DNA of 22,627 nt. Source: a virus. Positions 6,305 through 22,141 of the stretch are shown here, piece after piece (positions within the stretch are counted from its first letter, which is position 1; the number at the start of each line of letters is the position of its first letter). Both the position numbers and the translations under genes were made by a program. The notes beneath the pieces were generated by a model, which saw nothing but the letters and a program-made list of their open reading frames with translations, was not told the DNA's origin and made no database searches. Where the stretch lies: IMG/VR virus record IMGVR_UViG_3300049811_000253, positions 1-22,627 of that record, one strand, 5' to 3'.

Positions 6305-7552
6305 ATGTCGGAACCGACTTTTGGCATCAGCATCACGCGCTCTGACAACGAGCCGCGCCCCGGCATCTACAGCGACATGTCGGTTGTCGGCCTGATCGGC
6401 ACGGCCCCGGCGGCGGATGCGCAGACCTTCCCGCTGAACACGCCCGTCCTGATTTTCTCGGACGACGCGGAGAAGCTTGCGGACCTCGGCGCGACCGGGA
6501 CGCTGGCGGACGCGGTGCGCCTGATCAATTCGCAGCTTGGCGAGTTCCAAGTCGCCGCGAAGATCGTCATCGTCCGCGTGACCGCGGGAGCGACCGCGAC
6601 CGACACGATCACCAACATCGTCGGCAACGGGACCACTACCGGCCTTGCGGCGTTCCTTTCGGCCCCCGCGGAGCTCGGGCACACGCCGCGCCTGATCGCC
6701 GCCCCGGGCTTCACCAGCCAGCGCGCCGCCGGGCAGGCGAATGCGGTCTGCGCCGCGCTTCCGGCAATCTGTGCCAAGCTCCTCGCGCACGCGGTCGTGG
6801 ACGGCCCGGCTACGAACATGGCGGACGCGCTCGCGTGGCGCGAGACGCTCTCCTCCGAGCGGCTTATCCCCGTCGATCCGGCGGTGAAAATCCTCTCCGG
6901 CGGCAGCACGGTCGTCGTCCCGATGTCGCCCGCGGTCATCGGCGTGGCGGTGCGGCGCGATCATCAGTTCAACGGTCGCCCCTTCCATTCGTGGGCCAAT
7001 CAGGCGGTGCAGGGCATTCTCGGGCCGTCTCGCCCCATTGCCTTCTCCCTCACGGACGGCGCGACGGAGGGGCAGACCCTCCTCAATGCAGGGGTCGGCG
7101 TCATGGTCCGCGGGGAAATGGGCGTCGAGAGCGCAATCGGCTCGGGCGGCTTCATCTTCATCGGGACCGACAACGCGGGCGAAGATGACCTCTGGCGCTT
7201 CTACAACGTCACGCGCGGGCGGGACTACATTCACCTGATGCTTCTGCGCACGCTGCGCTTCTACCTCGGGCGGTTCAACATCAACGGCCAGACGGTGCAG
7301 GCGATTGTCAACACGATGAACACGGAGCTGCGGAACCTCAAGGCGACCGGCGACATCCTCGGCTATCAGATCCGCTTCGACCGCGACCAGAACAGCCCGG
7401 AACAACTTCGGCAAGGCCGCCTCGTCATCCGCTTCGCCGCGGAGGAGGCTCCCGTCTTGCGCCACCTTGGCATCCAGTCGGCCCGCTATCGGCCCGCGCT
7501 GGACGCGCTTCTCGATGACCTGCTCGCGCAGGTCGGCGTCATCACCGGCTGA
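6305..7552 (+). CDS. FI: Tail sheath protein (gpFI-like)
   Basis: The 415-aa protein is a contractile tail sheath subunit of the P2 gpFI/T4 gp18 group, which polymerises around the tube and contracts to drive DNA entry. The N-terminus has the usual strand plus SVVGLIGTAP motif and an ILIFSDD-type segment. The C-terminal domain contains RDYIHLMLLRTLRFYLG and a final helix region ending DDLLAQVGVITG, typical for sheath C-termini that weave neighbouring subunits together. Start ATG 6305 follows AAGGAGAG. The next gene encodes the tail tube, the normal FI-FII pairing. Confidence 0.93.
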   Translation: MSEPTFGISITRSDNEPRPGIYSDMSVVGLIGTAPAADAQTFPLNTPVLIFSDDAEKLADLGATGTLADAVRLINSQLGEFQVAAKIVIVRVTAGATATDTITNIVGNGTTTGLAAFLSAPAELGHTPRLIAAPGFTSQRAAGQANAVCAALPAICAKLLAHAVVDGPATNMADALAWRETLSSERLIPVDPAVKILSGGSTVVVPMSPAVIGVAVRRDHQFNGRPFHSWANQAVQGILGPSRPIAFSLTDGATEGQTLLNAGVGVMVRGEMGVESAIGSGGFIFIGTDNAGEDDLWRFYNVTRGRDYIHLMLLRTLRFYLGRFNINGQTVQAIVNTMNTELRNLKATGDILGYQIRFDRDQNSPEQLRQGRLVIRFAAEEAPVLRHLGIQSARYRPALDALLDDLLAQVGVITG

Positions 7553-19823: not shown

Positions 19824-20000
19824 TCAGCCTCCCCCGGGGATGCAGAAGGCCTGAGCCGGGGTAAAGCTCATGCTGCCCGGCATGGCGGCGACGGCGACCT
19901 CGCAAGCGTCCTTGCTGGGCATAGGAACGGCAGTCACACCCATGCCTGAGGTCCCGTTCCACGCCCACACGATCAGCCAGTAGGGTGCGAACATAGTCAT
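19824..20000 (-). CDS. Small protein with hydrophobic N-terminus and two cysteines
   Basis: The 58-aa product begins with a hydrophobic stretch (MFAPYWLIVWAWNG), then SGMGVTAVPMPSKDACEVAV and ends FTPAQAFCIPGGG. The two cysteines (about residues 33 and 53) could form a disulfide. It resembles widespread small phage proteins with an N-terminal hydrophobic helix and a DACE-type motif, none with a known function that I can name. ATG 20000-19998 overlaps the upstream stop (ATGA); the second Met, at 19994, has better spacing to GGAGGG. A longer frame to 20042 is unlikely. Confidence 0.65.
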   Translation of the reverse strand: MTMFAPYWLIVWAWNGTSGMGVTAVPMPSKDACEVAVAAMPGSMSFTPAQAFCIPGGG

Positions 20001-21226
20001 CCCTCCGCCTCGTCGCGCGCGTCCTTCCAGCCGCTCGACCACGCCTCCGCCAGCGCCTCGTTGCGCTTGAGGTCCGGCGGGCAGGCGTCCACCTTCTGGC
20101 CGCGCGAGAACGCCTTGCGCCCGCGCTGATAGGCCGCTGTCTCGGCGTCCTCGTCCGCCTGCGCCTTGCCTTCGTCGCTGGCCCCGTTTTCCGGCTCGCC
20201 TGTGGCCGCTTCACCCTCGGGGGCAGTCTTCCCCTCGGCGGAGGCCTTGGCGCTCTCCTGCGTCGTTTCTGCGGCCCGCTGCGCGACGTCCTCCTCGTGC
20301 TGCTTTTGGGCCTCGGCGCGGTCTGCGGCATGGCGATCCTCGGCTGCCTTCTGCCGGTCGGCTTTCGACGGCTCCGCCTCCTCCGTGCCCTTCCCGATGT
20401 CGGCCAGCTTGGCGGCGGTCCCCTTCGGCGCGGCATCGCCTCCGCCATCGCCCTTCCGCTTGCCCATGTCGGGGAAATAGTCCTCGACCTTCTGCTCGCC
20501 TTCCTTGATAGCCTTGTGCATGGCGATCAGCGTGGCGATTTCCTCAAGGCCGATGTCCTCCTCCCCCGCGACCTCCAAAGCGGCGAAGATTTGCTCTGGC
20601 TTGACCCCGAAAGCGGCGAATGCCTTGAAGGCGGCGCCCCGGCGCTCCGGCAGCGTCTTGACCTCGCCCTTCACCGTCTTCATCGCGGCCTCGTAGGCTT
20701 CATTCCAGACGGCCTTCGGGACGCCCGCGAGGATCGCGTTTCGCTTGGCGATAGAGCAGGCGGCGTTGCCGGTCACAACGATCATGTCGTCATTGAACAG
20801 GCGACCGTGGCTGTCCACGATCCGGCGCCGGACGCGGGCCGTGGTGGCGGTGTTCGTTTCCAAGTCGTGAAACACGCCTTCGGCTTCGACGTATTTCTCG
20901 AAGCGATCCACATGGACGACGCGCGCGCCGACACGGCAGTTCCCCCACTGGCTGGCGACGATTTCAGCCAGCCGGATCGAGGGGCCGAGGATAGGCTTCT
21001 TCCCGCGCGGCAAAGCATAGCCACACTCCTCCGCCGCCGCCGGGCTGATCGTCACCAGCGACAGGACGTTCTTGACGACCCGCGAGACGCTGCGCGGATA
21101 GGCGTGGGCGGTGGCGATCTGCTGGTCGATCTCCGCCTTGACGAGCTGGCCCACGAGGCTCTGCGCCGGGGCGGTGGTAGCGGGCAGTTCGCCGGTTTCC
21201 GGGTCGAAGTTTGCAACTTGTGTCAT
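19997..21226 (-). CDS. RecT/Rad52-like candidate annealing protein with RMF-like C-terminus
   Basis: The 409-aa protein has three parts. Residues about 1-255 are a conserved phage domain: FDPETGE, LVKAEIDQQIATAHAYPRSV, ECGYALPRGKK, GPSIRLAEIVASQWGN, EAEGVFHDLETN, VTGNAACSIAKRNAILAGVP. This layout recalls single-strand annealing proteins and their helper families but is not a clear RecT, so the function is inference. Residues 256-360 are low-complexity Glu/Ala/Lys linker. The last 45 residues (AYQRGRKAFSRGQ, a CPP motif, then AWSSGWKDARDE) resemble ribosome modulation factor (RMF): R/G helix, Cys-Pro, W..GW. MTQ at 21226 is preferred over 21238 because GGTGGA lies 4 bases before it. The stop overlaps the next gene. 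Confidence 0.75.
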   Translation of the reverse strand: MTQVANFDPETGELPATTAPAQSLVGQLVKAEIDQQIATAHAYPRSVSRVVKNVLSLVTISPAAAEECGYALPRGKKPILGPSIRLAEIVASQWGNCRVGARVVHVDRFEKYVEAEGVFHDLETNTATTARVRRRIVDSHGRLFNDDMIVVTGNAACSIAKRNAILAGVPKAVWNEAYEAAMKTVKGEVKTLPERRGAAFKAFAAFGVKPEQIFAALEVAGEEDIGLEEIATLIAMHKAIKEGEQKVEDYFPDMGKRKGDGGGDAAPKGTAAKLADIGKGTEEAEPSKADRQKAAEDRHAADRAEAQKQHEEDVAQRAAETTQESAKASAEGKTAPEGEAATGEPENGASDEGKAQADEDAETAAYQRGRKAFSRGQKVDACPPDLKRNEALAEAWSSGWKDARDEAEG

Positions 21227-21261
21227 TGGGTCCACCATCTTGGGAAATTGCGTTATGCGCG

Positions 21262-21874: not shown

Positions 21875-22141
21875 TCAGCCCTCCGCCGCTTCGGCGTCGG
21901 GGCGGCTCAATGCCTTCCCGAGCGCGAGGAAGCCGAGCTCGAATTGCGTCCTCGCAATGGCGACAAGGCGCTGGTCATAGACCCCGCGCAAGTGCGGGCG
22001 CGAATGCTCCTCGATCATTTCCATGATCGCGGCCTCCGCTTCGCGCACCACGGAGGGAAGCTGGATCGGCTCCTCCGTGGGCGTGGCGGCGGAGGACTGA
22101 ACCCCTGGCGCCGCAGGTTCGATCTTCTTCTTTTCCGTCAT
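21875..22141 (-). CDS. Acb2/Tad1-hairpin-like small protein, candidate cyclic-nucleotide sponge
   Basis: The 88-aa protein has a disordered N-terminus, then two helices. The second (residues about 56-81) carries DQRLVAIARTQFELGF followed by LALGKALSRP, close to the signature of the Acb2/Tad1 hairpin domain found in small phage proteins (R..AI.RT....GF.AL..A..RP). Known Acb2 proteins bind cyclic di- and trinucleotides and block CBASS; Tad1 relatives block Thoeris. Function here is inference from that pattern. I chose ATG 22141 because AGAGGA precedes it; the longer frame to 22183 has no ribosome site. It lies among early genes, three bases ahead of the next one. Confidence 0.7.
   Translation of the reverse strand: MTEKKKIEPAAPGVQSSAATPTEEPIQLPSVVREAEAAIMEMIEEHSRPHLRGVYDQRLVAIARTQFELGFLALGKALSRPDAEAAEG

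Follow-up and report, generated by a model that had tools for sequence, protein, structure and literature searches.

A divergent Acb2-type hairpin protein, a putative cyclic-oligonucleotide sponge, in a fragment of a contractile-tailed virus

Acb2 proteins are broad sponges that act by sequestration: three cyclic dinucleotides are held between head-to-head protomers, and two trinucleotides are bound at the ends of the central channel, independently of the dinucleotide sites (review PMC12043709). In Vs.4, the Acb2 of phage T4, cGAMP is held by Y8, H11, K23, R79 and F82, the substitutions Y8A and F82A each weaken its binding, and L29, A66, A73 and A77 are required for hexamer formation, mutation of the hexamer residues abolishing cGAMP binding (PMC10097602); T68M also lowers binding (PMC12657230). 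Tad1 (CbTad1, CmTad1) has the hairpin domain PF24729 in common with Acb2, and its gcADPR pocket is formed by the loops of an N-terminal beta-sheet domain together with the helices (PMC12043709). Work on the Panoptes system led to the proposal that phages may tune the specificity of Acb2, a T2 mutation probably disrupting the dinucleotide site (PMC12657218).

The window (the whole stretch of DNA analysed here, a virus record of 22,627 bases with ~68% G+C) carries contractile-tail genes on the plus strand (baseplate, sheath, tape measure, hub, lysozyme and tail fibre) and, at its right end, a minus-strand cluster made up of an exonuclease gene, the hairpin gene described below, two small ORFs (108 and 85 aa, with no assigned function) and the genes of a phrog_3657 protein and an HTH protein (Table 1). 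Its composition shows the hairpin-gene ORF to be real, and a ribosome-binding site precedes it: a GAGGA Shine-Dalgarno-like motif lies a short way 5' of its ATG, and the GC content at its codon positions (0.69/0.47/0.82) is similar to that of neighbouring genes, the plus-strand ORFs overlapping it having 0.82/0.49/0.65 and 0.59/0.65/0.79. The early-operon position suggested in a previous sequence-only reading of this DNA is plausible for a minus-strand cluster lying opposite tail genes; we infer the timing of expression only, since the contig is a fragment.

Table 1 Coordinates of the hairpin gene, its predicted parts and its neighbours in the window
Feature	Positions	Strand	Evidence
Acb2-type hairpin protein, 88 aa (MTEKKKIEP...SRPDAEAAEG)	21875..22141, stop included	-	ORF, RBS, codon-position GC, PF24729, own profile
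Predicted disordered N-terminus, residues 1-27; replaces the GY-bearing N-terminal loop/helix of Acb2	22061..22141	-	AlphaFold2 low pLDDT, alignments
Predicted helix 1, residues 28-46 (LPSVVREAEAAIMEMIEEH); R33 at the place of Vs.4 K23 / Acb2 K26	22004..22060	-	AlphaFold2, residue table
Predicted helix 2, residues 57-78 (QRLVAIARTQFELGFLALGKAL); R58 = Acb2 R67, T65 = Vs.4 T68, A63/G70/L74 = hexamer-interface positions	21908..21973	-	AlphaFold2, alignments, residue table
3'-5' exonuclease (RNase_T / phrog_192), upstream neighbour, cut by contig end	22203..22627	-	PF00929 E 4e-6, phrog_192 E 4.1e-15
phrog_3657 protein with C-terminal Rmf/CrpP-like domain; syntenic anchor	19997..21238	-	phrog_3657 E 9e-45, RMF PF04957 E 5.7e-8

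Judged by profile comparison, the homology of the hairpin protein to the Acb2/Tad1 hairpin is clear. The match to PF24729 spans residues 21-79 (E 7.3e-6, 26.5 bits) and falls 0.5 bit short of the curated cut-off of 27, and an HMM built from 18 phage members without the window protein gave the latter 30.4 bits, compared with 11.1 for the highest-scoring of 2000 shuffles; PF24729 matched all of the other members of this alignment (18/18). The profile of phrog_717, the Vs.4 family, aligned with residues 52-84 (E 0.021), and the nearest PDB sequences were those of Acb2 (p26), which alone reached only E 0.08. Membership in the Acb2/Tad1 hairpin family, as claimed in the sequence-only reading, is thus well backed by the two profiles and weakly by the fold, with the curated threshold narrowly missed; the C-terminal RT....GF.AL..A..RP pattern on which that reading relied is present, the helix reading DQRLVAIARTQFELGFLALGKALSRP. 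Within the family the protein is of the Acb2 type and not of the Tad1 type.

The closest sequences come from alphaproteobacterial and Mu-like phages, namely L022/G010, Brevundimonas phage Strzyga and L261, each of which, unlike the hairpin protein, still has the GY, N and K of its dinucleotide pocket. Its closest relatives among them are L022, an Acb2-like protein encoded on a viral contig (44% identity over 57 aa), and L261, from a prophage of the same order as the Rhizobiales host of L041 described below (37% over 62 aa). Searching the phage collection by tblastn gave weak matches to helix 2 only, direct single-protein scans of viral contigs, bacterial contigs and plasmids found no relatives, and searches of NCBIfam and PADLOC with the protein gave nothing meaningful. 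Weak matches in the PDB to pentameric ion channels and a hydroxylase were judged to be chance helix matches.

An AlphaFold2 model made with ten related sequences predicts an antiparallel two-helix hairpin (helices 28-46 and 57-78) with pLDDT above 90 (blocks 31-70), preceded by a disordered segment of 27 residues, in agreement with the earlier description of the N-terminus as disordered and longer than in the minimal domain. In a Foldseek search of the PDB, Vs.4 ranked first without being significant (E 2.5, probability 0.21-0.23). The control member L022, folded in the same way, reached probabilities of 0.98-1.00 against Acb2 and Vs.4, its E-value also not being significant, so the fold agrees with that of the family, but the hairpin protein is clearly more divergent. 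A structural second look placed Vs.4 (Z 6.1), Acb2 (5.2) and Tad1 (5.2) prominently among unrelated hairpins, with Z values within the range of the helical-hairpin background. Rip1 (9oox) scored like Vs.4 there, has no sequence support and was rejected, its Z too lying within the helical background. Foldseek found no significant match to the hairpin protein among viral models. Relative to L022, helix 1 is predicted to be ~5 residues shorter at its N-end, where P25 and P29 interfere.

Most residues of the dinucleotide pocket of characterised Acb2 proteins are, by alignment, not conserved in the hairpin protein, a point missed in the sequence-only reading. In a structure-guided table the equivalent of Vs.4 Y8 is gone (V14 or A18 stands there, by alignment), the conserved G7 is replaced and the conserved N20 has become S, while the other pocket positions read H11->P, K23->R33, R79->K76 and F82->S79; no aromatic residue occurs in residues 1-54. 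The loss of Tyr is strong evidence because 83 of 96 aligned members keep it (85 after correction of two segment-cutting artefacts), and loss of F82 alone is weak evidence because most members carry Ala there. Since the cyclic-dinucleotide pocket is not conserved, the classical anti-cGAMP activity is not to be assumed. Compared in sequence only, the hexamer-interface positions L29/A66/A73/A77 of Vs.4 correspond to I39/A63/G70/L74, each either the same residue or a conservative change; G and L are often found at these positions in other members. Both T65 (Vs.4 T68, Acb2 T74) and R58 (Acb2 R67) are kept. In the Acb2-cA3 work, R67 is reported to contact trinucleotides. No position of the family varies less than the equivalents of R67 (94/96) and T68 (95/96), in a set that was partly selected on them.

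Acb2 of Pseudomonas phages PaMx33/PaP2 (p26; PDB 8h2j, 8ixz), the best PDB sequence match at ~21% identity, is likewise a two-helix hairpin with the helix-2 signature (93-94 aa vs 88 aa here), and its R67 and T74 have kept equivalents. Its MDNQH..I.GYR N-terminus with Tyr11 is absent from the hairpin protein, in which N23 is lost, K26 is replaced by R and W68 by L, and which has no C-terminal Phe. Vs.4 of phage T4 (PDB 7uq2) is also a hairpin of 88 aa, compatible at T68 and at the hexamer-interface positions, and has Asp where Acb2 R67 and the hairpin protein have Arg.

Members without the pocket Tyr recur in the Acb2 family. We scanned viral contigs for the helix-2 signature and obtained at least 80 loci, in which retention of R and T is given by construction. 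Among the matches listed, 66 had GY upstream, 12 were uncut ORFs without GY (one of which, L180, may be truncated) and two were cut by contig ends; the matches listed also include members with His at the position of the Tyr, members lacking the residue, and one near-identical set with Cys (KGCREL), which comprises the Acb2 proteins L163, L198, L209, L146, L156 and L213. An approximate tree joins the hairpin protein to L131 and L137, both Tyr-less (support 0.83), and in it the loss of Tyr takes six label changes, a slight overestimate because L147 and L173, which appear Tyr-less in the 96-sequence alignment through segment cutting, both have GY. The Tyr-less Acb2-like proteins of L131 (1365-1700) and L137 (2149-2541) have long C-terminal extensions with a shared terminal HVEW/HIEW motif, and terminase genes lie downstream.

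A further relative, L041 of a Rhizobiales bacterium AFS086096 prophage, was found independently by gene order: exonuclease, hairpin gene and phrog_3657 protein follow one another as in the window, which supports a real, inherited gene. Its protein (22-26% identity) shares the absence of the pocket Tyr and has H and E in place of R67 and T68, so retention of R and T is not universal among Tyr-less members and an argument for trinucleotides cannot be extended to L041. A PF24729 gene occurred in none of the viral contigs with phrog_3657 relatives and in only one of 80 bacterial loci, L041. Other family members lie in head-gene regions (L261 among them), before terminase genes or beside recombination genes, the Acb2-like gene of Pseudoalteromonas phage B8b being of the last kind; such varied neighbourhoods are what a mobile anti-defence gene would show. 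The phrog_3657 protein of the window, which scores above the cut-off of NF041886, has relatives that are common in alphaproteobacterial genomes. It is 51% identical to that of Microcystis phage Mae-JY30, and tail-sheath DNA of the window (6933-7531) is 77% identical to this phage; the other relatives of the window are alphaproteobacterial, and the host recorded for Mae-JY30 might be worth re-examining.

As suggested in the sequence-only reading, the hairpin protein is probably a cyclic-nucleotide sponge. The two-helix hairpin would most likely assemble into an Acb2-type hexamer, and this hexamer would sequester a cyclic-oligonucleotide alarm signal during infection and thereby shut off a CBASS-like effector (or that of a cA3-type CRISPR system). 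Because residues of the side pocket are lost or changed and the helix-2 core with the R67 and T68 equivalents is kept, the likeliest ligand would be not 3',3'-cGAMP but a cyclic trinucleotide (cA3/cAAG) sitting in the central channel, or else some other signal; we regard the chances of this complete reading, a divergent Acb2-family hexamer with such a ligand, as evenly balanced. A conventional Acb2 would instead still sequester cyclic dinucleotides (3',3'-cGAMP) through a rebuilt N-terminus, with other residues taking the place of Tyr8 and Phe82. It could draw on the charge retained at two pocket positions (R33, K76), and the Phe82 equivalent is missing in many members (commonly Ala) as well as in the solved Pseudomonas phage Acb2, as the Tyr is in some other members. 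We nevertheless consider it unlikely, given the replacement of G7, Y8, H11, N20 and F82, the weakened cGAMP binding of Vs.4 Y8A and F82A (PMC10097602), the lack of aromatic residues in residues 1-54 and the shortened helix 1.

A hairpin derived from Acb2 that has ceased to bind nucleotides, serving another early-operon role (e.g. as a protein-protein adaptor beside the exonuclease and the phrog_3657 protein) or persisting as a decaying remnant, would account for the lost pocket residues and for the further loss of the R67/T68 equivalents in syntenic L041. The neighbourhood in phage B8b would suit it too, but members elsewhere lie among head or terminase genes, so the position of the hairpin gene does not point to a recombination role; with an intact ORF, a good ribosome-binding site and codon composition, and strongly kept helix-2 residues, we find this explanation rather improbable, if worth keeping in mind. 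A Tad1-like anti-Thoeris protein sequestering gcADPR, the other possibility raised in the sequence-only reading, seems to us highly improbable. Acb2 and Tad1 have the Pfam domain in common and Tad1 chains (7uav, 8kbc, 8kbf) appeared in the structural second look (Z 4.5-5.2), but these values lie in the background range of helical hairpins and the best PDB sequence matches are to Acb2. The N-terminal beta-domain of Tad1 is absent: residues 1-27 are disordered and AlphaFold2 predicts no N-terminal beta-sheet that could form the gcADPR pocket, which makes anti-Thoeris activity by that route unlikely.

For the reading as a divergent sponge of trinucleotides or another signal, one may speculate that Panoptes provides a selective reason for the loss of the dinucleotide site. 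It is conceivable, if doubtful, that a subgroup of Acb2 including the hairpin protein, L131 and L137 has lost the dinucleotide pocket but retained the hexamer core, and so consists of sponges that bind trinucleotides only or a new ligand. If this is true, a phage could overcome trinucleotide CBASS and leave in place the cyclic-dinucleotide decoys guarded by Panoptes. A natural Acb2 lacking one of the two sites would separate the di- and trinucleotide functions and reveal the residues that determine specificity, and such a member would test the proposal that Acb2 is tuned by phages to spare nucleotides whose loss sets off Panoptes (PMC12657218). The range of the family is also widened, by a phage whose relatives are alphaproteobacterial and by a gene order found in a Rhizobiales prophage too.
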